From the IMG/VR virus record IMGVR_UViG_3300010413_000097, positions 1 to 38,076 of that record: DNA of 38,076 nt; one strand, 5' to 3'. The DNA is from a virus. A model generated the notes under the pieces. That model made no database searches. It was not told the DNA's origin and was given only the letters and a program-made list of their open reading frames with translations. This document shows positions 6,819 through 37,834 of the stretch, in pieces (within the stretch, counting starts at the first letter, position 1; the number at the start of each line of letters is the position of its first letter). The position numbers were made by a program, and so were the translations under genes.

Positions 6819-8029
6819 CCGATAAAGGGTTTTTGCATCGACGCACCAAGAACTTTGGCAAATTGCCATACACGCTTATTGTGGACAAAAATATTACTGC
6901 CGGGGCAGCCCGTCTTTATGCCTACATGCACTGGCGCTATGGGTCCAATCGAGACAACCACGAAAGCCGTGAAAGCATGGCAGATACTATGGGCGTCTCA
7001 AAGAGAACCATTACCAAATATCTGCAAGAACTAGAACTGGCAGATTGGATTGCGATCATAGCGCGTAAAGGGAAACATGGAAGTGCTACTAACTTTTATC
7101 ATGTTTTCGAATTGCAAGAGGATTGTAAACTTTGGCGCAAGCATCGACAAAGGCCCAAGCCTACGCATGCCATAGAACAACGTAAGGGACGGATCGGCAT
7201 TGGGGGAAAGCCTACTCATAACACGGTGAACTCTAGTTCATCCTCTAAGCGGAACGGTGACAAGGTGAACTCAAGTTCACCCACCCCCCTGAACTCTAGT
7301 TCACACGATCCAGACTCATATGATCCAGAGAAAAAACAAGGAACACCACCGCCAATAGCCAAAACTAATCAACAACCGAGTAGCGCTGACTCGTCTAACG
7401 ACGGTCAGCCGAGGAGTGATAGCGACACGCTTCATGGTTTCCACACTGGCGATGCTGTGTGGGTCTGGTCGGACAAACGCCGCGACTTCGTGCAATGCAC
7501 CGTGACGCGTGAAACCGCACGGTATGTGTGGGTGGTGTATTCCAACATTCACGGAGCGCATCAGGAGATCAACCGCGCGCCACACAATGTGTATCGCGAC
7601 AAACCACCGACCACGTTTGAGGACTTGACGCCTGCACAGCAGGTGGTGGGCAAATGGACGCAGTGTATGCGGCCCGGCGAGGGCGTGCCCACGAGCACGC
7701 TGGTCTATATCCGCACCGTGTTGAAACGCTGCGAGGAGCGTTTTAGGACCACCATGCCCAACGCGGACGAACTCGAACGTGTCTTTGCCTGGAATAAAGG
7801 GAGGGGGCGGGATACATACACCAACCCTGACAAGATACCGGCGCTGGTGGGCGAATATCGTCAGGAGTACCGGCCCCAGAGGCCGATTAATGGCCATGCT
7901 GAATTCATCTATGTACCGGGGTGCAAGGCGTGTACGTTCGGGATGGTGGTCAACGAACAAGGCCACAGCGAACAATGCCCGGTGTGCCTGGAAGCGCACA
8001 ATAAGCAGGAACGGGAGGCGGCGTCATGA
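6815..8029 (+). CDS. Replication initiator with winged helix and zinc ribbon
   Basis: A 404-residue protein. Residues about 20-95 form a winged-helix/HTH domain (SRESMADTMGVSKRTITKYL, then a wing). A Ser/Asn-rich linker (135-205) follows. An SH3-like beta segment is seen at about 208-262, a helical domain at 268-350, and a C-terminal zinc ribbon with C370, C373, C388 and C391. This layout, directly before a DnaB helicase, fits a phage initiator/helicase loader of the lambda O or DnaD-like type. The linker DNA carries three near-identical 14-bp palindromes that are likely its binding sites. It overlaps the genes on both sides by ATGA. Sequence similarity to a named family cannot be proven here. 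Confidence 0.8.
   Translation: MTDKGFLHRRTKNFGKLPYTLIVDKNITAGAARLYAYMHWRYGSNRDNHESRESMADTMGVSKRTITKYLQELELADWIAIIARKGKHGSATNFYHVFELQEDCKLWRKHRQRPKPTHAIEQRKGRIGIGGKPTHNTVNSSSSSKRNGDKVNSSSPTPLNSSSHDPDSYDPEKKQGTPPPIAKTNQQPSSADSSNDGQPRSDSDTLHGFHTGDAVWVWSDKRRDFVQCTVTRETARYVWVVYSNIHGAHQEINRAPHNVYRDKPPTTFEDLTPAQQVVGKWTQCMRPGEGVPTSTLVYIRTVLKRCEERFRTTMPNADELERVFAWNKGRGRDTYTNPDKIPALVGEYRQEYRPQRPINGHAEFIYVPGCKACTFGMVVNEQGHSEQCPVCLEAHNKQEREAAS
7226..7304. repeat. Three palindromic iterons, putative replication origin
   Basis: TGAACTCTAGTTCA at 7227-7240, TGAACTCAAGTTCA at 7266-7279 and TGAACTCTAGTTCA at 7290-7303. They encode NSSS each time, using the same codons, while the spacers differ. An A-rich strand follows at about 7317-7380, as expected for a DNA-unwinding region. 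The placement inside the initiator's linker matches the lambda O gene and its origin. Confidence 0.75.
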
Positions 8030-9411
8030 CCGACATACAACGACCGGATCGCATGGCTCCGCACAGCGTTGAAGCTGAAGAGGCGGTACTAGGGTCGATT
8101 TTAATCGACCAGGATGCCCGGTTCGATGTGATGCCATTTTTGCATACCGATGATTTTTTCATCGTTCGCAACGGGTGGGTCTATGAGGCGATAGGCCGCT
8201 TGCACGCGCGAGCGGAGATGATCGATTACGTGACGGTCTGCGAAGAATTGCGGACCCAAGAGCGCTTGGAGGACATCGGCGGCCCCGCGTATATCACCTA
8301 CCTAGTGAACCATACGCCGTCCTCGATTTATGCCGAGGCTTACGGGCGGGTGATCGAGCGCGCAGCCTTGCGGCGGCGGTTGCTGGCAGCGGCGAGTGAA
8401 TTAGCGCAGTTGGCGCACGAAGAGGCCGCCGATATTCACGAGGTGTTGAACCGGGTCGAGGCGACGGTATTTGCCGTGACCGACCGTCACCATACACAGG
8501 ATGTGCAGCCAATTGGGGCCGTGATTGGCGACGTGTGGGACTATGCCGAACGCGCGCAGCGCGGGGAACTGGGTGGGCTGATTACCGGGTTTACGGACCT
8601 GGATCGGATTTTAGGCGGCCTCGAATGTACCGACTTGATCATAGGGGCGGGGCGTCCAGGCATGGGCAAAACGTCGTTAGCCATGACCATTGCGTATGAG
8701 GGCGCGAAAGCAGGGCGCTTAAAACCACTCATGTTCTCAATGGAGATGAGTAAGCAGCAGCTTGTGAGGCGATTGACCGCGATGGAAACCGGCATTCCGT
8801 CCAACAAATTCAAGGATGGAACATTGACGGATGCAGAATGGAGCACCTTTGCGGATGGCATCACGCGCATTGAAAAGCTGCCGATATACATCGATGATAC
8901 GCCGAATTTGTCCATCCTCACCCTCTCAGGCAAAGCACGGCGAGCGGTGGCGAAATGGGGGATCAATTGTATCCTGGTGGATTATTTGCAGTTGATGGAG
9001 GGCATGGGCGGGGAAAACCGCACGCAAGAAGTGTCTAAGATTTCGCGCGGGCTGAAACTAATAGCCAAGTCCCTCAAAGTGCCGGTGCTGGCCCTGTCGC
9101 AGTTATCACGGGCCGTTGATACCCGGCAGGACAAGCGCCCGCATTTGTCAGATTTGCGCGATTCGGGCACCATCGAGCAAGACGCCGATGTTGTGATGTT
9201 TATTTACCGGGATGAGGAATACAACGAGGCCACGACCCGTCCCAACCAGGCCGACATCATCGTTGCCAAGCATCGCAATGGGCCAACGGGTACTGCTTCG
9301 TTGTTTTTCAAGAAGGAACTAACGCAGTTTGCAAACCTGCGGACGAAAGACCTTAACTTTGCGCCGGTGAATGGCAATGATGGCGATGGTGTATACCGAG
9401 GCGGTAACTAG
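8026..9411 (+). CDS. dnaB: Replicative DNA helicase, DnaB family
   Basis: A 461-residue hexameric 5'-3' helicase of normal DnaB length. The N-terminal DnaB domain starts at about residue 11 (APHSVEAEEAVLGSILID). The RecA-like motor has a Walker A GRPGMGKTS (209-217), a Walker B ILVDYLQL (316-323), the DLRDSGTIEQDAD motif (376-387) and the arginine-finger region KHRNGPTG (415-422). It unwinds DNA at the fork after loading by the initiator. The start overlaps the initiator stop by ATGA. No primase gene follows, so the phage probably uses the host primase. Confidence 0.97.
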   Translation: MTDIQRPDRMAPHSVEAEEAVLGSILIDQDARFDVMPFLHTDDFFIVRNGWVYEAIGRLHARAEMIDYVTVCEELRTQERLEDIGGPAYITYLVNHTPSSIYAEAYGRVIERAALRRRLLAAASELAQLAHEEAADIHEVLNRVEATVFAVTDRHHTQDVQPIGAVIGDVWDYAERAQRGELGGLITGFTDLDRILGGLECTDLIIGAGRPGMGKTSLAMTIAYEGAKAGRLKPLMFSMEMSKQQLVRRLTAMETGIPSNKFKDGTLTDAEWSTFADGITRIEKLPIYIDDTPNLSILTLSGKARRAVAKWGINCILVDYLQLMEGMGGENRTQEVSKISRGLKLIAKSLKVPVLALSQLSRAVDTRQDKRPHLSDLRDSGTIEQDADVVMFIYRDEEYNEATTRPNQADIIVAKHRNGPTGTASLFFKKELTQFANLRTKDLNFAPVNGNDGDGVYRGGN

Positions 9412-21511: not shown

Positions 21512-22672
21512 ATGACAACGAAAATCGACATGGAACGGTTGGAAGAATCACTCGATAAGGCGCAGCAGTTGAACGCCATGCACGCCGCTACCCAAATGTA
21601 TCAGGTCACCGACCCCGACAAGGGACGTGTTGAGTTGGTCATGCGGGGATCGGATGGCAATGACTGGCTGAACGAAGCCTTGACCCCTTATCCGCGTACC
21701 CATCGGGGGTACATCACCACCGATCCGGACAGCGCGCTGGTTGAAACGGCCACCGGATATGCGACCACGCCGAACTTTCCCGATCTGCTGCGTAGTGGTA
21801 TCCAGTTTGATGCCTTCAGTAGTTACAACGGGGTGCCGATCACCTATCCAATGTTCACGGCGATGATGAACAGCAACAAAATGCAGGAAGAGTACCTCAA
21901 GGACTCCGCGTTGGGGATTGCTCCCGTGGTAGGTGAGGGCGAAGACTTCCCCATGGCCGCGATCAATCTGGATTCGGGCGTGACCATCAAAAACCACAAG
22001 CGCGGTTTTATCATCGGCGTGACCGAAGAAATGCGGCGCTTCGACCAAACCACCAAAGTACGCCAGATTGCCCAGGCCATTGGGCGGTCATTGCGTATTA
22101 CTGAGGAATATGCGGCTTACACAGCGCTCACGACATCGGGCAACTACACGCGCAACAGTACCACCAACGACAACAACGTAGGCGCCAACACAGCGGCTAC
22201 CACGTTCTCCGCCGTGGGCCTGATTACCGCGTTTGCCACGCTGACCACCATGAAGGATCGCAAATCGGGAATGTTCCTGGGCGTAGTGCCCGACACCCTG
22301 ATTGTGTCGCCTCAAGGGTGGTTTGCCGCCAAGCAGTTGATCGAGTCCCCGCAGGTCATGCGGGCGCATGCGGACGATGACAGCACCGTGATCACCGTGG
22401 AAAAATACGGCACGGGCACCAACAACGCCTTTTTCGGTATTGTGAACAAGATCATCGTATCGCCGTGGATGAATGACTACTACTGGGTACTCATGGAAAG
22501 CAAGCGCGCCCTGATGTTCCAGCGCGTTGATCCCATGCGTGTTCTGCCACCGGAATACTACCCGCGCAATGATACGTGGGAGTATCAGGCCCGGAACTAC
22601 TTTGGTGTGGATATGCTGGATGATCGCTTTGCGTATCTCTCGACCAGCAGCACCGCGCCGACCGTAACCTAA
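21512..22672 (+). CDS. Major capsid protein, HK97 fold
   Basis: A 386-residue protein with AAGGAG before the ATG. After a helical N-terminal arm (about 1-90) come segments typical of HK97-like capsids: IGVTEEMRRFDQTTKVRQIA (spine-helix region), LGVVPDTLIVSPQGWFAAKQ, and a C-terminal strand set ending FQRVDPMRVLPPEYYPRNDT. It forms the icosahedral shell. Its length and position between the protease and the connectors are normal. It is followed by a strong GC hairpin that may keep its mRNA abundant. Confidence 0.93.
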   Translation: MTTKIDMERLEESLDKAQQLNAMHAATQMYQVTDPDKGRVELVMRGSDGNDWLNEALTPYPRTHRGYITTDPDSALVETATGYATTPNFPDLLRSGIQFDAFSSYNGVPITYPMFTAMMNSNKMQEEYLKDSALGIAPVVGEGEDFPMAAINLDSGVTIKNHKRGFIIGVTEEMRRFDQTTKVRQIAQAIGRSLRITEEYAAYTALTTSGNYTRNSTTNDNNVGANTAATTFSAVGLITAFATLTTMKDRKSGMFLGVVPDTLIVSPQGWFAAKQLIESPQVMRAHADDDSTVITVEKYGTGTNNAFFGIVNKIIVSPWMNDYYWVLMESKRALMFQRVDPMRVLPPEYYPRNDTWEYQARNYFGVDMLDDRFAYLSTSSTAPTVT

Positions 22673-23229: not shown

Positions 23230-23747
23230 TGACCTTGACGACGGCGGAGCAGGTACGCCTGCGCATACAGGACATTCCCGCGATTGCTGATGCCACGTTT
23301 TACGGCGATGGCAGCGCGTCCGCGTTCCAGTTGGAACACCGGAATCTGCTAAGCGCCACGGCCTATGTGGCGGATACAGCAGGGGTATGGAGCGCTACGG
23401 GGGCGACGTTTGACGCCTCTGGCTTTGTGACGTTTTCGGGCGTCATTACGGCGCAAAGTGCATGGCGCGCCCGGTATGTGCATAGTGTGTTCAGCGAAGC
23501 TGACATAGGCCATTTTACGGCAGTGGGGGGCAATGTGCCCGGCGCTGCATTGGAAGCCGTGCATGCGTTAATGTTCGATGGCCTGAAACGCGCCAAGTGG
23601 GCAGCGCCGGATGGGACCGAATACGACGATACACGCGCGCTCGATCACCTGTGGCGGCTCCATAGCGCGCTCAAGGACGAAATCGAGCAGGGAGAAGTAG
23701 GCGACGGCGGGTTTGTGTCGTGGCCTGAAGGACAAGCGAACTGGTGA
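23229..23747 (+). CDS. Head-tail connector, adaptor-like
   Basis: A 172-residue protein starting MTLTTAEQVRLRIQDIPAIA. The N-terminal helix, central beta insert (FYGDGSASAFQLEHRNLLSA) and C-terminal helices (LEAVHALMFDGLKRAKWAAP) with an acidic end fit the gp6/gp15-type adaptor that binds under the portal. Position after the capsid and before a stopper-like gene agrees. No exact family match can be verified. Confidence 0.7.
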   Translation: MTLTTAEQVRLRIQDIPAIADATFYGDGSASAFQLEHRNLLSATAYVADTAGVWSATGATFDASGFVTFSGVITAQSAWRARYVHSVFSEADIGHFTAVGGNVPGAALEAVHALMFDGLKRAKWAAPDGTEYDDTRALDHLWRLHSALKDEIEQGEVGDGGFVSWPEGQANW

Positions 23748-24151
23748 GCTATCGAGGTCCCAACCGTGCCCGCATTCGCGCGCAGCACAGCGTCATTCAG
23801 GACTACGCGGCTGAAACCGCCACCTGGTGCGCGTATCTCACGGCCACGACCGGCACCGGGAGCGCCTATCTAGGCGGTGGGGGCACTACGCCCACCTACG
23901 CCGAACGCACGATTAGCGCCTTTTTTGCCGCGCCGCAGATGGGTGAGGCGCGCTTCCGTGAATACCTGTTGCCCGGCGGGCAAGTCATGGCGGGTGACGT
24001 GGTGATTTCGACGGTCACGGCGTTGGGCGCACAGGACGAAATCCAATGGCGCGGCGTGACCTACCGGGTTGAGGGGGATAGTACGCCCGTGCATTTGGGC
24101 GGGCGTCCGCTGTGGCGCACGTTGCTACGGCGCGGGGATTCGACGGGATAA
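23744..24151 (+). CDS. Head closure (stopper-like) protein
   Basis: A 135-residue protein starting at a GTG that overlaps the previous stop by GTGA. It is beta-rich: a five-to-six-strand barrel pattern with GARFREYLLPGGQVMAGDVV-like strands (residues 75-95), then a QWRGVTYRVEGDS hairpin and a basic end, as in the SPP1 gp16/HK97 stopper group. It would close the portal channel after packaging. The call rests on size, fold pattern and order. Confidence 0.65.
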   Translation: MSYRGPNRARIRAQHSVIQDYAAETATWCAYLTATTGTGSAYLGGGGTTPTYAERTISAFFAAPQMGEARFREYLLPGGQVMAGDVVISTVTALGAQDEIQWRGVTYRVEGDSTPVHLGGRPLWRTLLRRGDSTG

Positions 24152-24167: not shown

Positions 24168-25553
24168 GTGTTACTTGGTAATGGACAGCGCAAGCGGCGC
24201 ATTCTGATTTTCGGCGATGTGGCCGTGCCCACCGGCTTTGGGCGTATTGGCGCGGCGGCGGGCAAGTTCCTGGTAGCGCGTGGGTATGAGGTGGCAGGGG
24301 CATGCATTCAGTATGATGGTCTATTGCCCCCACGCACGGGTGTGCCGTTCTTCTGTGGGGCGCTGCAAGGCAAGGACCATGGACAGGCAATCACGGGGAT
24401 TGCAGCAGCTTACCAACCGGATATTGTACTATCGTTGCAGGACTTCCCCTATCACGAGATGCTGCGCACGGCGAGCGGCATTGATTGGAGCACCACGGGC
24501 CACGTGGTCGTGACGCCGATTGACGGCGTACCGATTGCCCGCCAGTGGCTCACTGTCGCCAAGCAGTTCGACGCGCTCTTGACCATTTCAGCGTTCGGGG
24601 TGCAGGCGTTGAAAGACGAGGGCGTGACGGCGACGTTGTGCCCGCCCGGCGTGGATACCAACGAATTCCACCGCTTGCCCGATGACCAGCGCGCGGTTTT
24701 GCGTGATCATCTCGGCATCGCTGGCGATGCGTTTGTAGTCGGCGTCATGGCTATGAACCAGGGGCGCAAAGACTTTCCCGCCATGATTGAGGGCTTTCAC
24801 CGTGCCTTTAAGGATGTGGAGGGCGCGCGGCTGTTCTTGGACTGCGAGAAAATCAGTCCGGCAGGATGGGACTTGCCCGCGTGGGTGGTAGAACGGATCG
24901 GATTGAATCCCGATAAGGTGCTGTACCGTGAAGATGCGCTACGCGCGGGATTACTCAGCCTGAATGAGCGCTACAACCTGCTGGATGTCCACATGGTGAT
25001 CGCCCACCGAGAAGGCTATGGACTGCCCCACGCGGAAGCAATGGCGACAGGCATACCCAGTGTGGCCATGAACTATTGCAGTGGCGCGGAAGTGATTGCG
25101 CTCCATGAGCAACGCGGGTGTCTCGTCAAGGGCACACCGGGGCGCATTGGCACCTGGGGCGGCGCGCGGGATTACCACGTGGACGTGGATGACCTCGCCA
25201 CCCAGTTACGCATGCTGTACGACAAGCCCGCCGAACGTGCCGTGCGGGGTGCACGCGGCCTCGAATGGGCCACAGCGCGCACCTGGGACAAGGCGTGTGA
25301 GGCGGTCGAGCAGGCGATACAGCGCGTGTTCATCAAGCGCCAGCATGACATCGCTCGCAAGCACCAGCAGCCCGCCACGCCGCAACCGCAGCAGTTGATA
25401 CCCGCAGGGGTGCAACCGCCCGCTAATGTGTTCCATCTGCACGCGCCGATTTATGTGCAGGGCAATGGGGCAGAGCAGGTAGGCACGGAGATTGCGCAAG
25501 CCGTCGGGCAGCAGGTGGTCCTGATGGAGCAGAAAGGACAGGGGGATGACTGA
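24168..25553 (+). CDS. Glycosyltransferase, GT4-like
   Basis: A 461-residue GT-B fold enzyme. The N-terminal Rossmann half begins RRILIFGDVAVPTGFGRIGA. The linker carries CPPGVDTNEFH, and the C-terminal half has the E-x7-E signature (EGYGLPHAEAMATGIPSVAM), followed by a GCLVKG strand. About 90 residues at the end are Gln/Pro-rich and not part of the fold. It transfers a sugar from a nucleotide donor. The start is a GTG at 24168 with a purine run shortly upstream. It opens the inserted sugar-transfer cassette, which interrupts the usual connector gene order. The acceptor is unknown; a virion protein is most likely. Confidence 0.9.
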   Translation: MLLGNGQRKRRILIFGDVAVPTGFGRIGAAAGKFLVARGYEVAGACIQYDGLLPPRTGVPFFCGALQGKDHGQAITGIAAAYQPDIVLSLQDFPYHEMLRTASGIDWSTTGHVVVTPIDGVPIARQWLTVAKQFDALLTISAFGVQALKDEGVTATLCPPGVDTNEFHRLPDDQRAVLRDHLGIAGDAFVVGVMAMNQGRKDFPAMIEGFHRAFKDVEGARLFLDCEKISPAGWDLPAWVVERIGLNPDKVLYREDALRAGLLSLNERYNLLDVHMVIAHREGYGLPHAEAMATGIPSVAMNYCSGAEVIALHEQRGCLVKGTPGRIGTWGGARDYHVDVDDLATQLRMLYDKPAERAVRGARGLEWATARTWDKACEAVEQAIQRVFIKRQHDIARKHQQPATPQPQQLIPAGVQPPANVFHLHAPIYVQGNGAEQVGTEIAQAVGQQVVLMEQKGQGDD

Positions 25554-25908
25554 GGAAATGCGCTGCACAAATTGCGGTCATCAATGCCGCGATACAAGTG
25601 CTATTAATCAGGGACGTGATTGGTGGCACTGTGAGCGTTGTGGTCTGAATGAATCGGGTGCATCCATTCGGGAATATTGGGCAACGTGCAATAAACCTAG
25701 ATTCTGGAATCGCCTATTCTTTTACCGCGATAAACTCAATGTAAATGTAGAGGTTTATCAAGCTACATGCAGGCGTTGCAATAAAGAAAACGTATCGTGC
25801 CTAATGGTTGATACCTCAGAATATGAATATGATCCAGTTCTCTTGTGTTTTGAATGTATCGAACAGGCTAAAACAGACTATGAAAGCCACATGGCCGATG
25901 CACCTTAG
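25546..25908 (+). CDS. Two-site zinc-finger protein
   Basis: A 120-residue protein starting MTEEMRCTNCGHQCRDTSAI, overlapping the previous stop. It has CxxC pairs at C7/C10 and C29/C32, then CRRC and CFEC, i.e. two possible zinc ribbons. Its DNA is distinctly more AT-rich than both glycosyltransferase neighbours, suggesting separate acquisition. It overlaps the next gene's start by 11 bp. Function unknown; a link to glycosylation is only positional. Confidence 0.7.
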   Translation: MTEEMRCTNCGHQCRDTSAINQGRDWWHCERCGLNESGASIREYWATCNKPRFWNRLFFYRDKLNVNVEVYQATCRRCNKENVSCLMVDTSEYEYDPVLLCFECIEQAKTDYESHMADAP

Positions 25909-26656
25909 CGTCATCATTCCCGCCTACGATCACTTGGACGCGGTGCTGACCTGCTACCAGTCATTAGCGCGCACGGTCAACCCGCAGCGTACCGAAGTGC
26001 TCATACAGGACGATGCCAGCCCGGCGTATGATGGCCCTTCGGTTTTGGGGCCAGCCTGCCAGCGCAACCCGGCGAACCTGGGGTTCCCTGGCAACTGCAA
26101 CGCTGGGGCACAGCGGGCGCGCGGGGACGTGCTGCTGTTTCTGAACCAGGACTGCGAGGCGCTACATCCGAATTGGGACGCGCGGTTGTTGGAGCATTTC
26201 GAGCGTTTCCCGCAATGTGGGGTCGTAGGACCGACGCTGCTATTTCCTGATGGGCGGGTGCAATCGGTCGGCGGCGGGTTTGATGCCGCCAGCCAGCCCT
26301 ACCACCAGTACCTGGGACTGAGCAACCCGGACTGGGAACCGATCAACACGCCGCGTACTGTCGCGTGGGTCACGGGAGCCGCGTTCGCGGTGCGCACGAC
26401 GTGCTGGCAGCAGTTGGGCGGGTTCGATACCGTCTATGGGCGCGGGTATTTCGAGGATGTTGACTTTTGTGTGCGGGCGGTGAACGCGGGCTGGCAGGTG
26501 TGGCACAAGCCCAGTGTGCGGTTTCAGCACACGGTCGGTAGCACGGGCGGGAGCCCGACGTTTCGGCAGAACGCGCTGGAATTCAAGCGGCGCTATGTGG
26601 ACACAGGTTTGATTGAACCGGATACACGATTTATCCGAGAAAGGTTCTGGGTGTGA
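25898..26656 (+). CDS. Glycosyltransferase, GT2 family
   Basis: A 252-residue GT-A fold enzyme starting MHLSVIIPAYDHLDAVLTCY. Family features follow in order: the IQDDAS strand, NPANLGFPGNCNAGAQRARG, the FLNQDCEA metal/donor site, the VVGPTLLFPDGRVQS strand, and GGFDTVYGRGYFEDVDFCVR with the catalytic ED. It resembles rhamnosyl/galactosyl transferases of the WbbL type. The start is chosen where the fold begins; an ATG at 25880 is also possible, and neither has a strong ribosome site. The last codons are part of a segment duplicated downstream. Confidence 0.9.
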   Translation: MHLSVIIPAYDHLDAVLTCYQSLARTVNPQRTEVLIQDDASPAYDGPSVLGPACQRNPANLGFPGNCNAGAQRARGDVLLFLNQDCEALHPNWDARLLEHFERFPQCGVVGPTLLFPDGRVQSVGGGFDAASQPYHQYLGLSNPDWEPINTPRTVAWVTGAAFAVRTTCWQQLGGFDTVYGRGYFEDVDFCVRAVNAGWQVWHKPSVRFQHTVGSTGGSPTFRQNALEFKRRYVDTGLIEPDTRFIRERFWV

Positions 26657-26961
26657 AAGTCCATCTCGTGGAAATTGACGACACCATGAAGCAGATGTTT
26701 AATCTGATACCGGGGCGCTTTGGGTCTGTAACGCCTACCATTCAGAAGAAAGTATTTGCATCACTGGACAATGCCAAGAAATACGCTTCCGGGTATTTTG
26801 GATGCGATATGAACTGGTCGGGTCCGTGTGAAAAGGATGACCTAATTGAACATCATGGGATGGTTCCAGGTGTATCGGGAACTATGTCAGCAATAGTCTA
26901 TGAAGTTGAGGTGCAGGAGTAGAAAGGTTCTGGGTGTGAAAGTCTATCTTGTGGAAATAAC
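26638..26961 (+). repeat. Tandem duplication boundary repeat, 283-bp period
   Basis: The segment starting at 26638 (last codons of the GT2 gene plus the GTG start of the first small gene) recurs at 26921 with 24 identical bases and 36 of 39 overall. The 3' ends of both small genes share a 17-base block. The second copy therefore carries a relic of the GT2 gene's end as its leader. Confidence 0.8.
26653..26922 (+). CDS. Small protein, first of a tandem pair
   Basis: An 89-residue protein starting at a GTG that overlaps the previous stop (GTGA). It begins MKVHLVEIDDTMKQMFNLIP and ends YEVEVQE. It aligns with the next gene: the same first and last segments and a shared helix (LDNAKKYASGYF against PEDAQTYGDACF). 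It is predicted to be a small alpha/beta fold. Family unknown. It sits between two glycosyltransferases. Confidence 0.75.
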   Translation: MKVHLVEIDDTMKQMFNLIPGRFGSVTPTIQKKVFASLDNAKKYASGYFGCDMNWSGPCEKDDLIEHHGMVPGVSGTMSAIVYEVEVQE

Positions 26962-27154
26962 GCCTCTCGCGGGATTTATAAAACCCGCTATTGAACCTTG
27001 TGCGTTTGCAACACCTGAAGATGCACAAACCTATGGCGATGCGTGCTTTCGAGGGGAGTTGATCTGGCGTGAGCACGACGGGCAAATGATTGGGTCAATC
27101 CCAGGAACGCTAGTAGCCAATGCGCGCTTGATTGAAGTTGAGGTGCAGGAATGA
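26936..27154 (+). CDS. Small protein, second of a tandem pair
   Basis: A 72-residue protein starting at a GTG in the duplicated leader. It begins MKVYLVEITPLAGFIKPAIE and ends EVEVQE. It is 17 residues shorter than its neighbour, mainly in the middle, and the middles have diverged, so both copies have been under separate selection for some time. Its stop overlaps the next ATG by ATGA. Confidence 0.75.
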   Translation: MKVYLVEITPLAGFIKPAIEPCAFATPEDAQTYGDACFRGELIWREHDGQMIGSIPGTLVANARLIEVEVQE

Positions 27155-28038
27155 ATATTCTCATTACCGCCATTCACTATCCTATCGCCTCCGGGCGCTA
27201 TGCCGCCGCCGCACTCCGCCGTCTGGGGCATGACGTGCGCACCGCAGGCCCGTGCACGGGGCGGCGCATCTGGGATATGGATGTTGACGAGGTGCACGTA
27301 TGGCTGACCGAGTTCCCAGAAGAAGACTGGAACCCGGAACTGGTCATTCACATGGACGGCAACCTGCCAATGGAGCGCACGTGTGATGCGCCGCATATCG
27401 TGTACGGGGTGGATAACCACGTGCGCAAGTATGACCAAATGGAGTGGGATCACCTGTTTCTGGCGCATGGGCACGGCTTTCGTATCGGTGAGGACAATGT
27501 GACGTGGCTCCCCTGTGCGTATGATCCGGTGTGGTTCACGCCCGGCCCGGCATGGTCGCAGCGTACAATGGACGCGGCGCTGATTGGCGTCCAGTATGGC
27601 CCGCGCGCCGAACTGCTGTATGCGCTACGGGAGCGTATCCCGGCGATTCGCATGGATTACCGGACGGGGCCGTTGTTTGCCGAGTATGCGCACGCCTACC
27701 AGAACGCCAAAATTAGCCTAGTACGGTCGGTGTTGGGTGACGTGGCGATGCGCGTCTGGGAAACCGCCGCGATGGGGTGTCTGGTCGTTATGGACCAGTG
27801 CCCGGATGGTGATGATCTGGGACTGGTGGATGGCAAGAATTGCCTGATCTACCGGACACTGGACGAAGCGCTAGATAAGGTGCAATGGGCACTGAGCGAC
27901 CCCAAGCAGGCCGAAGCCATCGCCCGCAAGGGGCAAGAATGGGCACTCCCCGGTACGTGGGACGCCCGGATGCAGGTTATCGTTGAGTGGGCAGAAGCCC
28001 AAACCGCGCCCAAGCGCGAGAAAGCGACAGCGAAGTGA
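27151..28038 (+). CDS. Glycosyltransferase, CgeB-like GT4
   Basis: A 295-residue protein starting MNILITAIHYPIASGRYAAA. The C-terminal half has the features of the Glyco_trans_1_2/CgeB group: a SLVRSVLGDVAMRVWETAAM segment, then GCLVVMDQ and a GKNCLIYRTLDEA segment and a regular helical end. The N-terminal half holds a HMDGN strand and an HIVYGVDNH segment. It is shorter than typical two-domain GT4 enzymes but complete. It probably adds a further sugar to the same glycan as the other two transferases. Confidence 0.8.
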   Translation: MNILITAIHYPIASGRYAAAALRRLGHDVRTAGPCTGRRIWDMDVDEVHVWLTEFPEEDWNPELVIHMDGNLPMERTCDAPHIVYGVDNHVRKYDQMEWDHLFLAHGHGFRIGEDNVTWLPCAYDPVWFTPGPAWSQRTMDAALIGVQYGPRAELLYALRERIPAIRMDYRTGPLFAEYAHAYQNAKISLVRSVLGDVAMRVWETAAMGCLVVMDQCPDGDDLGLVDGKNCLIYRTLDEALDKVQWALSDPKQAEAIARKGQEWALPGTWDARMQVIVEWAEAQTAPKREKATAK

Positions 28039-28322
28039 GCGAGCAAGGACTTGAGCAGCTTCTACGCGAGGCTATCTATAAGGTACAGTTGGGGCAGGAA
28101 TTGTCTAGAGCATATCCAAACCCCTATGTCGGCATACCATCGCCAATGACAAAAGCCTGTATGCAGGCTGAAGCGTGGTTGAAGATAGCGCTGGCCGATG
28201 TCATCGCTATGGATATGGATGCTACGGAAAAGAAATCCAGCGTTCATACAATTAGTGATGGGCGGATACCCATGCAGGCGCCGATTGCGCCAGAGAGCGA
28301 AATCAATGACACGCGGGATTAA
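28035..28322 (+). CDS. Hypothetical protein in sugar cassette
   Basis: A 95-residue protein starting at a GTG (28035) that overlaps the previous stop by GTGA and reads MSEQGLEQLLREAIYKVQLG. It is helical with a Met/Asp-rich middle (IALADVIAMDMDATEKK). It overlaps the methyltransferase by 17 bp. Family unknown. Confidence 0.65.
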   Translation: MSEQGLEQLLREAIYKVQLGQELSRAYPNPYVGIPSPMTKACMQAEAWLKIALADVIAMDMDATEKKSSVHTISDGRIPMQAPIAPESEINDTRD

Positions 28323-29097
28323 CCTGGGCTGCGGTACGGTCATTCTCCCCTGCGAACGCCCGCATCATCACCGGGCGCTGCCAGAGGAGTTGTATACCAA
28401 CGCTGCGATCCAATGGGATAACGCTGATTGGAATGGACAGCCAGGCGTGAATATCGTGTGCGATCTGTTCGATTACCCGTGGCGCCATCAAGCCACAGGA
28501 GAGGTTATCCCTGATAATACCTATGACGTGGCGATTGCCTCCCACATTGTGGAGCATATCCCGCACCATGTGGTAGAGAACGGACAGTTTATCCCGCATC
28601 ACCCACAATATCAAGACGGTTGGTTTGCGTGGTTCTCGGAGTTGTGGCGCGTGCTGAAAAAGCCAGGGGGCATGGCACATATCCTGGTACCCTATGCCTA
28701 TAGCAACAGTGGTGTCGCGGACCCATCGCACACCCGGTACATTATCCCGGCCACGTTTGGGTATTTCGATACGGAATACAACGGCAGCCCATTTGTGTAC
28801 CGAAGTAAAATGCGGTGGCATGAAGTGGATTTCACGAAAGACTTGGTTTTTGTGCCCCATGAGCAAGCTGTGGCCTTGTTCCGGTCCCAAGTCAAGTTTA
28901 TGGACCGATTCACGGACTTTCTGACCAGTGGCACACTCACGATGGAGCGCGACTGGGATTTGGATGAGGATTTGCCCCAAGAGGGGCATGATGCCGAATG
29001 GATGCAGGCGCAGGTGTGGCAAATGGCGCAGCGTTACCAGAACATGATTGCGGAATTCACCGTGCGGATGGAGGCGCTGCCCCTGCATGACGATTAA
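28306..29097 (+). CDS. SAM-dependent methyltransferase
   Basis: A 263-residue class I methyltransferase starting MTRGINLGCGTVILPCERPH. The first strand and motif I (INLGCG) are at the very N-terminus, an acidic strand (NIVCDLFDYPW) follows, then DVAIASHIVEHIPHHVVENG as motif IV and LWRVLKKPGGMAHILVPYAY as the post-motif segment, as in the Methyltransf_11 type. In sugar cassettes such enzymes cap a glycan by O-methylation. The start is where the fold begins and overlaps the previous gene by 17 bp. The substrate is inferred from context. Confidence 0.85.
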   Translation: MTRGINLGCGTVILPCERPHHHRALPEELYTNAAIQWDNADWNGQPGVNIVCDLFDYPWRHQATGEVIPDNTYDVAIASHIVEHIPHHVVENGQFIPHHPQYQDGWFAWFSELWRVLKKPGGMAHILVPYAYSNSGVADPSHTRYIIPATFGYFDTEYNGSPFVYRSKMRWHEVDFTKDLVFVPHEQAVALFRSQVKFMDRFTDFLTSGTLTMERDWDLDEDLPQEGHDAEWMQAQVWQMAQRYQNMIAEFTVRMEALPLHDD

Positions 29098-29515
29098 GCT
29101 CGACTACCGCCAGTTATCCAGCGAAGCAAAGTACTGGCGCACGGTGGGAAGGGTAGCCCTGAAAGTGCTCTGGGACGAACTACGCGCCGAGTCGTTTGAA
29201 CTGGAACGCGATCTAAAGGGCGGTACGCGCGGGCATCAAATCCCGGTCCTGACCGGACGCGCACGGGCATCGTGGGGCCACTGGACACCCGGCGATATCA
29301 AGCCGGGCGCAAAAGGGGCGTCATCTATGGATGCCTACTGGAAAGAAAATAAGACGAAGCTGGAAATTACGCAGGGGAGCAACGTCGAATACATGGAAGC
29401 CCTGAACGCGGGCCACAGCCAGCAGCAACCCGCTGGTTTTCTGGATGAGGCCGAAAAGGACGCTGAGCGTAGTCTGGAACGACGGGTTGACCGGGTTCTC
29501 AATCTGTATTTTTAG
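29087..29515 (+). CDS. Tail completion/neck protein, HK97 gp10-like
   Basis: A 142-residue protein starting MTIKLDYRQLSSEAKYWRTV, overlapping the methyltransferase by 11 bp. A long N-terminal helix, PVLTGRARASWGHW, then GSNVEYMEALNAGHSQQQPA and a C-terminal helix ending ERRVDRVLNLYF form the gp10-like pattern of proteins at the head-tail joint. It resumes the connector series that was interrupted by the sugar cassette. Confidence 0.8.
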   Translation: MTIKLDYRQLSSEAKYWRTVGRVALKVLWDELRAESFELERDLKGGTRGHQIPVLTGRARASWGHWTPGDIKPGAKGASSMDAYWKENKTKLEITQGSNVEYMEALNAGHSQQQPAGFLDEAEKDAERSLERRVDRVLNLYF

Positions 29516-31597: not shown

Positions 31598-33918
31598 TGC
31601 CGGATCGACGGCGCACGATCACGCTATCTGTCAACGACGATTTCAGCCGCCAACTGAAAGCGTTTGTGACGCATATGGACGCAGCGGAACACAGCGCGCA
31701 AACCTTTTCTCATGGTACGAAGGGGTTCTTTCAGGCAGGTGCAGAAAATCTCTTTTACATGGCGAATGCGGCACGTGAGGTGTACGGGGCATTTTCGCGC
31801 GTATTCAGCACGGCCAACCAATGGGCCGATATGGGCAAAAATGCCATGCGTTCAGAATATGCGTTGGGACAATTGGCCGGGAGCGCTAAAGAAGCGAGCG
31901 CATGGATACAAGCGGTTCAAGATGCCGCGTTGGGCAGCGTAACCAAAGGTGAGGCGGCGGCACAGGCTTACCAGCTTATGCGATTTGGCTTGGCGGATAG
32001 CGCCGAAGCAGCGCGTGATTTTGTGCGAGATATTTCTATTGTAGCTACCGCCAATCCTCAATTAGGCGATACCGCTGAAGCGATTAACCAGCTTCAACTT
32101 ACCCTGTCGAATATGTCATTTATGCGCCTAGACCAACTCGGCATAAGTGCCGGGGTAGTTCGTAAGCGTATGGCAGAACTGAAGAAAGAAACAGCAGGAC
32201 TGACCACTGAGCAAGCATTCCAGCAGGCCGTGATGGAACAGGTAGGGCAGCAAGCGGATATTCTGGGTGACAGTATTTTGCAAGTGGACGATGCCCAAAA
32301 ACGGCTTGAGGCACGGTTTCGGGGGTTTAAGGAAGGACTTGGTAAAGAGATTGCCGAGGGGTTTGAGGGCGCAGCGGAAGCGGTCGATGGGTTTTACGCC
32401 TCCCTGAATGCTGGTTTTACTATGGGCGATTTCACGGCAGAAGGTGCGCGGCAGGCTGGCAAGAAAGGCAATCTTGTCGAAACCATCGCTTTTTTGACCG
32501 CGACGCAACTAGCAGCGTTCTATGGGGCAGGGCAAACAAAGCCGGGTCAGGAAATAACTTTAACCAGTCCCATGATACCGAAAGCCACGCCCGCCGAAGT
32601 CCTTGACGTGTCCCAATTGTATCCTTTTGGGTTGGCTCCGGGTGGCTATGGTGGCGATGTGACCCGCAACTTGCAAGCCACAACCAACGCTCAACGGCAG
32701 CGCGCGTTCTGGTGGCAGCAGAAACCCGTGATGGCATCCTTGCGAGAAGGGGGCGCGCTGAGCGATCAGGATTGGCAAGCGTTTACACAACAATACAACA
32801 TGGACATTGCCTCGGCATATTGGGGCACAGATTTAACTGGGTGGGATAAAGAGTCCTGGTACGATTACCGTAAACGCGCGCAGGAAAGCACGGCAGCGCG
32901 CTATGGCCAATGGCGCACGGGACAATTGACGGGCGCTGGCATGGAAACGCGGGGGGGAATACCGTCTCAAGTTGCTGGCCCCGGTGGTATGAAACCCCAG
33001 TTTGAAGCGCTGCAAACCGCCATTCCGATAGTGACCGACCTGTTCTCGACCATGACAGGCACGGTCCAAGATGCCGCCCGCGCTCTGTTCACATTGGGCG
33101 ACGGATTCGAAGAAGTGAATTCATTGGCCGAAAAGTTCGGCTTGGGCGCGGGCGCGTTTCAGGTGGATGTACTGCGCGAAATGAAAGACGCGCTGCAAGA
33201 CGCAGGTGTCAGTCAGGACCAATACAACGAAACGGTCGCCGCCTATGAGCACCTTACAGGCTTAGCCAATGCCCAAAGCGCTGCCTATGACACACAACTG
33301 CGCTCGATTTCAGAAGCGTTTGCTGCTGGTGAATTAACTCAGCTTGAATACCTGAATGCACTCAATCAAATTACCAATGCGGATTTGTCCGGCTTAAACT
33401 GGTTGACCGTGGCATTTCAAGCCGATCCTTCCACGCTAGAACTCTACAACGAAATTCTAGGCAAAATGGGCGATCCGGCATTTGCGCAGGCGGCGGCCCA
33501 GTTGCCTCAAAATATTATGGGGATGGCTCAAGAGGGATTTGGAACCTTTGCCAGCATGCTGTTTGGGGGCGCCCCTGCGGCGGGCGGTCAGGAGGGGGGC
33601 GCGCGGGATGACGCCACCACGCAAGCGATGCAGGGCATTACGGATGCAATCTCAACGCAAACCGGACTTTGGACGGAGGATTTCACGGCATTTACTACCA
33701 CGTCTACCGAACAAATGAAAACGCTGGAAACAGAAAGCGTGACCAGCATTGATAATATCGGCAATAGTTTTGAGCAACTGGACGGCAAGCAAGCTACGCT
33801 GATCATCAACATTTCCACGCCGGACATGTTGAATACCCTGTTATCCATGGTCGGTGCGCAAGAACGGGTGCCACAAGATGATGTCGATGCGAGCAACCTG
33901 CGGCGCGGGGGGCGGTAA
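31597..33918 (+). CDS. Tape measure protein
   Basis: A 773-residue protein starting MPDRRRTITLSVNDDFSRQL. It is long, largely helical and Ala/Gln/Glu-rich, with early segments typical of tape measures (NAAREVYGAFSRVFSTANQW and GSAKEASAWIQAVQDAALGS). At about 1.5 angstrom per residue it predicts a tail near 115 nm. It follows the chaperones and precedes the tail-tip gene. I see no embedded lysozyme or peptidase domain and no clear membrane span. Confidence 0.9.
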   Translation: MPDRRRTITLSVNDDFSRQLKAFVTHMDAAEHSAQTFSHGTKGFFQAGAENLFYMANAAREVYGAFSRVFSTANQWADMGKNAMRSEYALGQLAGSAKEASAWIQAVQDAALGSVTKGEAAAQAYQLMRFGLADSAEAARDFVRDISIVATANPQLGDTAEAINQLQLTLSNMSFMRLDQLGISAGVVRKRMAELKKETAGLTTEQAFQQAVMEQVGQQADILGDSILQVDDAQKRLEARFRGFKEGLGKEIAEGFEGAAEAVDGFYASLNAGFTMGDFTAEGARQAGKKGNLVETIAFLTATQLAAFYGAGQTKPGQEITLTSPMIPKATPAEVLDVSQLYPFGLAPGGYGGDVTRNLQATTNAQRQRAFWWQQKPVMASLREGGALSDQDWQAFTQQYNMDIASAYWGTDLTGWDKESWYDYRKRAQESTAARYGQWRTGQLTGAGMETRGGIPSQVAGPGGMKPQFEALQTAIPIVTDLFSTMTGTVQDAARALFTLGDGFEEVNSLAEKFGLGAGAFQVDVLREMKDALQDAGVSQDQYNETVAAYEHLTGLANAQSAAYDTQLRSISEAFAAGELTQLEYLNALNQITNADLSGLNWLTVAFQADPSTLELYNEILGKMGDPAFAQAAAQLPQNIMGMAQEGFGTFASMLFGGAPAAGGQEGGARDDATTQAMQGITDAISTQTGLWTEDFTAFTTTSTEQMKTLETESVTSIDNIGNSFEQLDGKQATLIINISTPDMLNTLLSMVGAQERVPQDDVDASNLRRGGR

Positions 33919-36575
33919 TGGCAAACACCTTTGATGTCTTTCTGGATTACGATAACGACGGCGCGTTTGATGCCGCCGATGAAATCACGTCAAAGCTCAA
34001 GCGGGTCGACGAATGGCGCCAGGGCATTGCCATGCCGCTAACGCAGCGGGTCGCCACGCCGGGCCGCCTGGTGCTCACCCTGGATAATACCGACAAACGC
34101 TTCAGCCCCGCCTGGTATAACTACCTTGCCGCCGTCAAGGCGACCAGCCCGGCCAACCTGATCGGCTATTGGCCCATCAATGACTCCACGGGCAGCAAGG
34201 CGCAAGATCACAGCAACAATGGGCGCAATGGCACGATTTACGGCGTGACGTTGGGCGCGGATGGTATTGGCGACTACAACAGCGATGGCGTGTTTACAGC
34301 GGGAACATTTGACGGAATAAATGATTACATTGACATCTATAGCGCCGGGTTAGCCGGGGCTTTTAATCCGGACGCGCTAACGGTGCTCGTGTGGGGGCGC
34401 GTGACAGGCACCTGGACAGATGCAACCGGGCGGGTATTAGTCTACCTGGGCGCGGACACCGACCAGAACCGTTTGTATTTTCTGAAAGACGCTTCCGGGT
34501 ATATGAACTGGGCGTATGAAGCAGGCAACGTTTTAAAGACGCAATCCGACGCGACAGGACTGCACCTCAAAGATTTATCCGCTGATGCCTGGTTTTGTCT
34601 TGCCATGACCGTGAGTACTGCGGCAGACCAATTGATTGCTTATTATAACGGGGCACAATGGCGAGAGATAGTTACAGGGTTGGGCACATGGGCGGGCGCG
34701 CTAAATAGTGAATTTTGCAATATCGGCGCCAAACAAACCACCCCCTCAGTGCTCTTTGATGGCGATCTGGCGCATATGGCCCTCTGGGATACCGTCCTGA
34801 CGCCCGCGCAAATCAGCGCCCTCTACCGCGCCTATGCGGGTCGCCCCGTGCCCAACCTGCCGATCCGGGTCCGCAGCACGGACGGCGTGGACACGTGGAC
34901 GGTGTTCCGGGGTGTCACGCTGGATTTTGAACCCACACCCGATGTGAACGGGGCACAGGAATGCCGCCTGACATGTACCGATCACATGGGCGTGCTGCAA
35001 GCTGATACGTTGTCGGTGCCCCTATTTGAGAATGTAGATACCGATGATGTAATTTCGGCCATAGTCAACGAAACCTACGCTGGCGAGGCCGCGAGTGGAT
35101 ATGTCCTGACCAGTGGGGGCGGCGATATCAATACGTGCACGATCAATGGACAAGTGTATACCTTTGCCGATCCTCTGGTTGACGAACCCTACAATGTGCT
35201 TGAACAAGGTATTTTCACTGCTCAGAACTTACGCGCTGCGATTAACGCTGAAGATGGCGCGGGCACCAAATATGGCACCGGCACCGCGCGGAATAACGAT
35301 GTAGAAGCCCAGGATCACTTACCCGTAGTTGATCCCATCGACCCGCGCCAGATAGACTTATATGCACGGGTTAAGGGCACCACCGGAAACGCGATCACGC
35401 TGGAAAAAGACGGGGCGCATATCGCCATCTCCGGGGCTACCCTAAGCGGTGGCACAGATGCCCCCAGTGGCTTGACCAGTTTCCAGGCGGGCGAACAAAC
35501 CGTTGATATTGCGGGCGACCAGTGGGACCCGGATACCACATCCGCACTACAGGCCATAAAAGATGTGGTGAATGCCGAGCAGGGCTTCTTCTTTGCCGCC
35601 CGTGATGGCACGCTGACGTTTCTCAACAAGGACTGGCAATTTTTGCGCGCCATCGCAACGCCCGCGATCACGGTCGATAACACGCATAGCGGGCAATCAG
35701 GCGGGCAATATGAGCGGTATATTTTCAACCGGGTGATCGTGACCTATACGCCACGGAATACGGATGATGTGGGCGTGGTAGCGCGGTCGAATACGCCGAT
35801 CCGAGTCCTGGCTAATTCTGGCACCCAGCGGTTTTCGCCCATCATTGGCTGGCCTGGCAGCGGTTACACAGGGGCGCCCTCGCCAGGGGATTCTGTAGTT
35901 CGTATCCCGTTTGTGGATGTTGACACCGGGAGCATTTGCGGCGCAAAAGACGTATTGCCATTGACCCCCACCACGGATTACATCGTGCGTCCTACTAGCG
36001 ACCCAACCAGCGATGATCTGACCTTTGCGGGATTTATCAGCGGGTCATTTGTAGTAACGGGTAGTGGGGTTGAGATATCGCTCCAAAATAGTTGTGTGCG
36101 TGATATGTACGTGCACGATCTACAAATCCGGGGCACACGCCTACTGCGCTATGATGATCAGACGGTGATCAGCGAAAATGCAGCCAGCATTGCCGCGTAC
36201 AATCGCAAGCCCTACCGCATTCGATTAGCACTGACCACGAATGAGAATTTTGCGCGGAGTATTGGGAATTATGAACTGGGACGGTTCAAAAATCCGGTAT
36301 CGCTGGTGCCCTCCATTATCTTCCGGGGGGACCCGGTAGTCAATGGCGTGAATGTATTCAGTCTGGACCTGGGCGATATAATCACGCTGAGCGAGGATCA
36401 AACCGGCATTGCGGCGCAGATGTACGCCATCATGGGATTCAGGTATGGCGTTAACGAAGCGGGTACGGTCTGGGAATTGGAATGCTATTTGCGATCCATT
36501 TCGGACAAAACCTATTGGATTCTCGGTGATGCTACCTATGGTGTGCTGGGATATACCACGCGCCTAGCTATTTAG
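33918..36575 (+). CDS. Tail-tip protein with inserted LamG-like domain
   Basis: An 885-residue protein. Residues about 1-75 (RLVLTLDNTDKRFSPAWYNY) and from about 304 (AYAGRPVPNLPIRVRSTDGV) belong together as one domain of the baseplate/tail-tip type, as related phage proteins run straight from FSP to GRPV. Between them, residues about 79-303 are a concanavalin/LamG-like jelly roll (LIGYWPINDSTG, then FDGINDYIDI and HMALWDTVLTPAQISALY). The rest is beta-rich with a long C-terminal part. It probably forms the tip hub, and the LamG part would bind host glycans. The same domain recurs in the gene at 37085. Confidence 0.85.
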   Translation: MANTFDVFLDYDNDGAFDAADEITSKLKRVDEWRQGIAMPLTQRVATPGRLVLTLDNTDKRFSPAWYNYLAAVKATSPANLIGYWPINDSTGSKAQDHSNNGRNGTIYGVTLGADGIGDYNSDGVFTAGTFDGINDYIDIYSAGLAGAFNPDALTVLVWGRVTGTWTDATGRVLVYLGADTDQNRLYFLKDASGYMNWAYEAGNVLKTQSDATGLHLKDLSADAWFCLAMTVSTAADQLIAYYNGAQWREIVTGLGTWAGALNSEFCNIGAKQTTPSVLFDGDLAHMALWDTVLTPAQISALYRAYAGRPVPNLPIRVRSTDGVDTWTVFRGVTLDFEPTPDVNGAQECRLTCTDHMGVLQADTLSVPLFENVDTDDVISAIVNETYAGEAASGYVLTSGGGDINTCTINGQVYTFADPLVDEPYNVLEQGIFTAQNLRAAINAEDGAGTKYGTGTARNNDVEAQDHLPVVDPIDPRQIDLYARVKGTTGNAITLEKDGAHIAISGATLSGGTDAPSGLTSFQAGEQTVDIAGDQWDPDTTSALQAIKDVVNAEQGFFFAARDGTLTFLNKDWQFLRAIATPAITVDNTHSGQSGGQYERYIFNRVIVTYTPRNTDDVGVVARSNTPIRVLANSGTQRFSPIIGWPGSGYTGAPSPGDSVVRIPFVDVDTGSICGAKDVLPLTPTTDYIVRPTSDPTSDDLTFAGFISGSFVVTGSGVEISLQNSCVRDMYVHDLQIRGTRLLRYDDQTVISENAASIAAYNRKPYRIRLALTTNENFARSIGNYELGRFKNPVSLVPSIIFRGDPVVNGVNVFSLDLGDIITLSEDQTGIAAQMYAIMGFRYGVNEAGTVWELECYLRSISDKTYWILGDATYGVLGYTTRLAI

Positions 36576-36587
36576 AAGGGATAGACC

Positions 36588-37085
36588 ATGGCCTGGACCA
36601 CGCCTAAAACCTGGACAGCAAACGAGGTTCCTGATGAAAGTGATTTCAATATAAATATCAGGGATAATCTAAACGCCTTGAAAGCGCCCCCCTTTGGGGA
36701 GACGGCGCTCTCGGCCACCAGTTATTCTAATATTCAATCCACCAGCACCGTATTTGCCAACCTGATGACCGGAACAGTCACGGCGCAAATCCAGCTTGCG
36801 ACCTATGGTGGCGATATAGAGGTGCATTTCGAAGGTTCGATCCATTGTGATTCCACCTGTGCCTTGAATTTTACCTACAACGGCACCGCGTATGCAGACG
36901 AGCCCTTCGGACTCTGCGTGATGGCATCTCCGCAAGTGGTGCCCATCACGTTTTCCCGCTTCGTAACAGGGTTGCCATCAGGGACGCATACCTTTCGGCC
37001 CCAGTGGCTCACCACCAATGGGGCCAACCCGATCCAATTAGCGCCGAGTGCCAAATCTATTTTCTGGGTACGGGAGACAAGCTAG
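36588..37085 (+). CDS. Tail fibre-like protein
   Basis: A 165-residue protein starting MAWTTPKTWTANEVPDESDF. The N-terminal W-TTP-TW-ANEV-x-N-x-RDNLNALK pattern is one I recall at the start of many phage fibre and tail-appendage proteins, where it attaches the fibre. The rest is a beta domain (IQLATYGGDIEVHFEGSIHC) that may be a sugar- or receptor-binding head. AGAAGGGA lies upstream. Confidence 0.75.
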   Translation: MAWTTPKTWTANEVPDESDFNINIRDNLNALKAPPFGETALSATSYSNIQSTSTVFANLMTGTVTAQIQLATYGGDIEVHFEGSIHCDSTCALNFTYNGTAYADEPFGLCVMASPQVVPITFSRFVTGLPSGTHTFRPQWLTTNGANPIQLAPSAKSIFWVRETS

Positions 37086-37834
37086 TGAGTGGGACCATAA
37101 GTCAACCGTTAATGGGCGTGCCGGGGTTGTTTGAGCACGGCTATATGAACAAGGTGAAAGGCATCGCGCCGGCGAACTTGCTGGCCTATTGGCCGCAATG
37201 GGAACCGCGCGGGACGCTGATCAACGATCTGTCGGGTAATGGGCGCATCGGTACCTACACCGGCGTCACGCTGGGGCAGCCGGGCATCGGGGATGGCTAC
37301 ACGTCCCCGCTGTACGATGGCGCGAATGATGTAGGCAATTGTTACAGCGCCAGTCTGGCGACAGCGTTTTCGGCGCTCACTGGCACCCTGCACATTTGGG
37401 CCAGGGTCTACAATGCCGCCGTGTGGGTAGACCATACCGCGCGCCTGGTGGCCTATTTTGGGGCAGATGTCAGCGATAACCGGGTGATGATCCTGACAAA
37501 CGTATCGGACCAGCTCGTGTGGACCTATACCGCCAACGGCGTGACAAATTCCGTCACTGACAGCGGCAACAGTATTTCAACTACCGATTGGATGGCGTTA
37601 GGTCTGACGTGGGACAAGGGCGCTGATGCCGTCATGGGTTATTATGCGGGGGCTCAATTTGACTCGACTCAATCCGGGTTGGATGTGTGGGCCGGAGCCC
37701 TGGCCAGCACGTTGTGTACGCTGGGGTCTAAAGGCGCGACACCAGCCCTGGTATGGAACGGGTATCTGGCCCATGCGGCCCTCTGGGATGCCGTATTGAC
37801 CCCGGCAGACATGGCAGCGCTTGCGGAGGTGTAA
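37085..37834 (+). CDS. LamG-like tail fibre/receptor-binding protein
   Basis: A 249-residue protein starting at a GTG that overlaps the previous stop by one base, with GGGAG eight bases upstream. After about 30 residues it is a single LamG/concanavalin-like jelly roll: NLLAYWPQWEPRG, DLSGNGRIGTYTGVTLG, then HAALWDAVLTPADMAALAEV. It aligns along its length with the insert in the tail-tip protein. It probably binds host-surface glycans. The free-standing and inserted copies look like products of duplication. Confidence 0.8.
   Translation: MSGTISQPLMGVPGLFEHGYMNKVKGIAPANLLAYWPQWEPRGTLINDLSGNGRIGTYTGVTLGQPGIGDGYTSPLYDGANDVGNCYSASLATAFSALTGTLHIWARVYNAAVWVDHTARLVAYFGADVSDNRVMILTNVSDQLVWTYTANGVTNSVTDSGNSISTTDWMALGLTWDKGADAVMGYYAGAQFDSTQSGLDVWAGALASTLCTLGSKGATPALVWNGYLAHAALWDAVLTPADMAALAEV

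Follow-up and report, generated by a model that had tools for sequence, protein, structure and literature searches.

Why should a virus keep a run of sugar-transfer genes in the midst of its virion genes? The question is raised by the IMG/VR viral contig IMGVR_UViG_3300010413_000097 (38,076 bases, the whole of which is called the window), where positions 24168-29097 hold three glycosyltransferases (GTs; one GT4-like, one of family GT2 and one PF13524/CgeB-like), a class-I S-adenosylmethionine (SAM)-dependent methyltransferase and four small genes. Judging by sequence, this block appears to be a core, apparently permanent part of an uncultured siphovirus-like lineage and not an inserted extra. 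We consider it probable that it is an ancestral part of the virion operon whose soluble enzymes would build a methyl-capped glycan on the virion, late in infection and in the cytoplasm, with the C-terminal tail of the major capsid protein (MCP) as leading acceptor. The observations behind this reading are the enzyme families with their catalytic motifs, their position, the lack of membrane segments, a capsid tail that is absent from relatives without the block, and a fusion of the third GT with the methyltransferase. The enzymes and the two genes that flank them are as follows.

23744-24151, + strand: flank, head-closure-like protein (Hc; phrog_161/763 weak, ~0.03; conserved synteny)
24168-25553, + strand: GT1, GT4-like glycosyltransferase, 461 aa (Pfam PF00534, 7.6e-7; phrog_2170, 3.8e-18)
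25898-26656, + strand: GT2, GT-A family 2 glycosyltransferase, start ATG at 25898 (Pfam PF00535, 3e-15)
27151-28038, + strand: GT3, PF13524 (CgeB-like) glycosyltransferase, 295 aa (Pfam, 1.2e-14)
28306-29097, + strand: class-I SAM-dependent methyltransferase (motifs NLGCG, EHIPH and DPSHTRY; orthologues; model)
29087-29515, + strand: flank, tail completion or Neck1-like protein (phrog_169, 3e-7)

The genes of the block are tightly coupled, with overlaps of 4-17 bp at most junctions; the junctions without overlap are a 13-bp gap within a pair of small genes and a 16-bp gap ahead of GT1. The original prediction, which had described a sugar-transfer cassette inserted among the connector genes, gave the limits of the block exactly. 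Its gene content, three different GTs, a methyltransferase and four small genes in one coupled unit, is borne out by the Pfam matches, the overlaps and the orthologues and model of the methyltransferase. Regarding the flanks that it named, the downstream gene is Neck1-like by PHROG, and the upstream gene matches head-closure families weakly.

Position of the block across the lineage

A search with GT1 returned 12 IMG/VR contigs, all of which carry the block at the same position as far as their sequence reaches. To remove the bias of the GT1 query, GT-independent queries (portal, adaptor and capsid) were used on IMG/VR; the capsid protein as a single query found nothing there, and a capsid alignment did retrieve contigs. 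The GT1 orthologue is the next conserved gene in 31 of the 31 contigs that extend beyond Hc, 12 already known from the GT1 query and 19 new. Several of the 31 are near-identical (L033-L036), leaving about 27 distinct ones. GT2 is then present in every contig reaching that far, and the methyltransferase wherever the sequence extends. GT3 is present except in a divergent branch (25030_000176, 27819_000020, 25312_000412, 9285_001999), and contig 25141_013597 has no GT3 within the 1.2 kb held after GT2. When the whole viral collection was searched with GT1 and GT3 profiles, the contigs returned were of the same lineage, and the newly found GT1 contigs that were checked have the same neighbour genes. 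Furthermore, distances between block genes follow those between portal and adaptor genes (Mantel-type Spearman 0.31-0.72; GT4-like enzyme against portal 0.61, 0 of 500 permutations), which is consistent with co-inheritance. GT1 was not found in whole-record searches of the distant portal relatives G006, G007 and G009, which delimit the lineage.

The block is not an insertion: every related contig long enough to include it has it at one and the same site. This part of the original prediction therefore does not hold; the search for the block elsewhere in related phages that it had suggested was run, and gave the same position between Hc and Neck1 throughout. That a passing cassette was acquired by the window phage only is hardly credible. 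Accessory genes and genes of HNH and LAGLIDADG type are indeed gained and lost between the core genes, but the core itself keeps its position in every relative whose sequence extends to it, so that synteny contradicts such an acquisition, and the contigs examined from the GT3 and GT4-like profile searches show the neighbours of the lineage. Near-identity and protein searches of 50,697 phage records with capsid, portal and GT3 gave no match, and thus no cultured close relative is found. The same block (GT1 match of 63%) is present on contig L073 (JADZBY010000461.1; 5.8 kb), which had been assigned to an Anaerolineae metagenome-assembled genome; no host is claimed from it, because every gene in the part that was read is a phage gene and the binning may be wrong.

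Enzymes, accessory genes and neighbours

All four enzyme families keep their catalytic-motif residues invariant in alignments. GT1 scores 29.3 bits against PF00534 (Glycos_transf_1; cut-off 26.4), with an invariant E-x7-E. Its last ~45 residues (window 25416-25550, HLHAPIYVQGNGAEQVGTEIAQAVGQQ) form an HLHAPIYV..AVGQQ module that occurs in GT1 of some close relatives only, and a motif scan of the loci found it in no other open reading frame (ORF). GT2 scores 57 bits against PF00535 (Glycos_transf_2; cut-off 23.3); its best named family is the MftF-like TIGR03965 (1e-22, under the cut-off of that model), and its profile aligns with polypeptide GalNAc-transferases across the full GT domain (1e-9 to 1e-10). 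GT3 scores 54.9 bits against PF13524 (Glyco_trans_1_2; cut-off 25). The window methyltransferase itself has no Pfam match; Methyltransf_11/23 is matched by five of nine aligned members of its family (best 2e-4), the fused orthologue in contig L082 matches the family profile with an E value of 4.5e-42, and a model of modest confidence (mean pLDDT 66) resembles class-I SAM methyltransferases. Taking motifs, orthologues and model together, the protein is assigned to the wider class-I SAM fold, and the model is too weak for a substrate to be named from structure. A PDB sequence search was uninformative for GT3 and the methyltransferase. No membrane segment was detected in any block protein (maximum 19-residue hydropathy 1.31), thus the enzymes are predicted to be soluble. 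A dN/dS comparison of L003 with L073 (GT4-like enzyme 0.09; seven differences in GT3) had too few changes and is not used as an argument.

Several relatives carry informative variants of the enzyme set. GT3 and the methyltransferase are fused into a single 671-residue ORF at L082:8355-10367, GT3 is present in two copies in L117, and a B12-binding radical-SAM gene stands between the methyltransferase and Neck1 at L034:13907-15184 and L084:14328-15587, its product having no more than distant similarity to proteins of cultured phages (Streptomyces phage SF3). These variants support a joint role in building and modifying a glycan, and the fusion and the radical-SAM gene would fit stepwise modification.

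The four small genes lie between the enzyme genes.

25546-25908, + strand: Cys4 zinc-ribbon-like, 120 aa (CxxC pairs; no confident family)
26653-26922, + strand: first of two tandem genes, 89 aa (BLASTP match to the 26936-27154 gene, 1e-9)
26936-27154, + strand: second of the tandem genes, 72 aa, start GTG (paralogue of the 26653-26922 gene)
28035-28322, + strand: fourth small gene, 95 aa, start GTG (no Pfam or PHROG family)

In L003, L004 and L010, GT1, GT2, GT3 and the methyltransferase stand alone between the flanks. Since the zinc-ribbon gene, the small pair and the fourth small gene are all missing from this compact form, they are accessories, and the weight that had been placed on the zinc-finger and tandem-pair genes is not warranted. 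Relatives have comparable HNH-, LAGLIDADG- and other small genes among the core genes. An HNH-type endonuclease gene (Pfam) is found between GT2 and GT3 in L034, with look-alike Cys-rich genes in L007, L025 and L038, and L034 also has a LAGLIDADG-like gene 3' of the methyltransferase; these genes would point to a possible homing hot spot. Two recurring small families, an ATASAY-type of ~150 aa and an ATIHAGGD-type of ~134 aa, occupy the interval between Hc and GT1 (L025, L031, L023, L111, L098, L114).

The genes 5' of the block encode the portal, a Mu-F-like protein, the protease, a decoration-like protein, the capsid, the adaptor and the head-closure-like protein; those 3' of it encode Neck1, tail proteins and probably the tape measure. 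For adaptor, decoration, tube and tape measure, the assignment is based mainly on gene order and length. A DnaB gene is located at 8026-9411, and no tRNA genes were found in the window. Lectin-like Laminin_G_3 domains are present in tail-region proteins at 33918-36575 and 37004-37834, the latter just below the Pfam cut-off. Some relatives differ in these neighbours. The head-closure protein of L001 (6014-7684) is longer by ~415 residues, which include a Big_12 Ig-like domain, possibly a neck appendage; protease and capsid are apparently fused in one protein in the distant relatives L068 (12962-15406) and L069 (12740-14845); and in L058, a 7948-base contig without protease, capsid, block or Neck1, the tail-tube genes come immediately after those for portal and Mu-F-like protein, which is either a real rearrangement or an assembly artefact.

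The capsid tail, the proposed pathway and its alternatives

The candidate acceptor lies at the end of the capsid gene.

21512-22672, + strand: MCP, HK97 fold (phrog_133, 1.1e-14; phrog_1650; AlphaFold2 model; Foldseek matches to HK97/encapsulin)
22640-22669, + strand: codons of STSSTAPTVT, the C-terminal tail of MCP and candidate acceptor of the glycan

The window MCP ends in the peptide FAYLSTSSTAPTVT. Across the lineage the mean identity of MCP is 40%, and most of these proteins still end in a near-constant sequence (consensus YYSSSTTAPTV, then S, D or T); LSTSSTAPTV of the window MCP ranks second among 381 ten-residue windows in conservation. Across 28 contigs, a mean of 5.4 of the last ten residues are Ser/Thr, compared with 13.6% Ser/Thr elsewhere in the protein. 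In four relatives without the block, the same ten residues hold 2, 1, 1 and 0 Ser/Thr, the proteins ending in RSTGGV (L103), YRGLYRGI (L068, L069) and IHQGN (L072). Among the block-bearing contigs, two without GT3 (L067, L101) have some of the most degraded tails and are also among the most divergent. The tail comes after the last strand of the HK97-like model, and in encapsulins of the HK97 fold the C-terminus faces outward. The conserved, Ser/Thr-rich tail of MCP is the leading candidate acceptor, and the C-terminus of the tail-tube protein (GPTASGYLG-like) is a second candidate.

Under the proposed pathway, the enzymes would be made in late infection and would act in the cytoplasm on virion proteins. 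Two or three GTs would successively attach sugars from host nucleotide sugars into a short O-glycan. GT2 might prime Ser/Thr, which is a guess, and GT1 and GT3 would extend the chain after priming; the methyltransferase would then cap it, methylation being the last step. The original prediction had likewise proposed sugar transfer from the late operon, and the location among structural genes does make the virion the most plausible target, while the timing of expression is something we infer. A stronger version, in which every capsid subunit is obligatorily glycosylated on a purpose-made Ser/Thr tail and a sugar coat is built into head maturation throughout the lineage, is doubtful.

Several points weigh against a methyl-capped virion glycan on the capsid tail. 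The virion glycan, the late expression of the enzymes, their target, acceptor and order of action are all inferred from sequence. The C-termini of Hc and the tail-tube protein are conserved as well, thus the conserved MCP tail may be merely structural. The contrast in tails between relatives with and without the block may reflect one evolutionary split, and tail and block may each trace to a single common ancestor, so that their co-occurrence would not represent many independent events; the block-less relatives are also distant (the L103 MCP is 23% identical). A GT3 orthologue is missing in some divergent contigs, and GT2 is as distant from polypeptide GTs as from MftF or polysaccharide GTs, or more so.

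A variant of the same proposal is that another virion protein (neck, head-closure or tail-tube) is glycosylated and the MCP tail is only structural, which we regard as somewhat unlikely. The head-closure and Neck1 genes bound the block, the conserved ends of Hc and the tail-tube protein would suit such a role, and L001 has the extra Ig-like domain on its head-closure protein; however, the Neck1 C-termini are Ser/Thr-poor, those of Hc are less Ser/Thr-rich than the capsid's, and gene neighbourhood alone does not identify an acceptor. Less likely again is that the enzymes act late in infection on a glycan of the host cell surface, which would keep progeny from sticking to debris or shut out other phages. 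Such a change is a known role of phage GTs (PMC10202952, PMC12619734). Protection at lysis would suit a late operon, and glycans may be receptors because the tail-region proteins carry Laminin_G_3 domains. The hallmark of a Gtr-type O-antigen cluster is a membrane flippase with membrane-bound GTs, but no block protein has a hydrophobic segment, and neither a membrane partner nor a gene resembling a flippase adjoins the block. Superinfection-exclusion genes are usually variable and located elsewhere, whereas this block is fixed between head-closure and neck genes throughout the lineage.

That the enzymes glycosylate bases of the phage DNA is very unlikely. Phage GTs acting on hypermodified DNA are known (cited in PMC12619734), and the lineage could have an unexplored DNA chemistry. 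Against this, a homologue of thymidylate synthase or dCMP hydroxymethylase (PF00303) was found neither in the window nor in nine relatives, with a control search positive in 9 of 14 genomes, and the block is surrounded by virion genes, away from replication genes such as DnaB. DNA modification is thus improbable for want of a hydroxymethylase-type gene, in agreement with the earlier view that the block does not serve early DNA modification. A search for TET/JBP dioxygenases gave no match, and its control likewise matched nothing.

Known systems and significance

In the literature consulted, experimental reports of phage virion glycosylation come from mycobacteriophages. The closest parallel is the Corndog cluster (cluster O), whose virion operon likewise contains four consecutive genes, one for an O-methyltransferase and three of GT type (Corndog gp35-gp38; Firecracker gp33-gp36), located in the portal-protease interval (PMC4351075) rather than between head closure and Neck1. 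According to two papers that cite Freeman et al. 2023, the Corndog-type genes modify capsid and tail-tube proteins (PMC11600133), and mycobacteriophage virion glycans are found at the C-termini of these proteins (PMC12619734). The Corndog type is known from a single group of hosts; the block described here is a fixed feature of an uncultured lineage, in which glycosylation is predicted from genes. BLASTP and hhalign comparisons of Firecracker gp33, gp34 and gp35 (gp36 left out) with the GTs and methyltransferase of the block gave no convincing homology; GT2 against gp35 was marginal (0.004, a single comparison).

Other phages share parts of the arrangement. Pontimonas phage phiPsal1 has a group-1 GT, a SAM methyltransferase and a GT2 between capsid and neck genes, its GT4 homologue being 25% identical (5e-11), but the methyltransferase is on the opposite strand, GT3 is absent and MCP ends in LFESIS. 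Synechococcus phage S-CBS4 and Microcystis phage Mae-JY09 have a GT4 homologue (~27%) among portal and capsid genes, in S-CBS4 also with a methyltransferase by the head genes, but with other neighbours and other partners. The cluster F mycobacteriophage Che8 shares phage-encoded GTs and capsid glycans (PMC11256854, PMC12363180), yet its first 12 kb, with head and tail genes, has no annotated GT; in the Che8-related Maravista, the GTs are encoded close to the genomic 3' end (PMC11256854). Thus, the claim that such a gene set had not been described needs qualification: a methyltransferase with three GTs in a virion operon was known from the Corndog cluster, whereas the enzymes here lack convincing homology to that set and occupy another position.

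The principle is therefore known from mycobacteriophages, and what appears to be new here is its probable execution by unrelated enzymes, at a different position and in an apparently obligatory form within a lineage. If true, the non-homologous gene set, the fixed position and the candidate acceptor tail would suggest more than one origin of capsid glycosylation, and that it is able to serve as a core function. The block also supplies a testable acceptor peptide and a compact set of four enzymes, both usable in vitro without phage culture.

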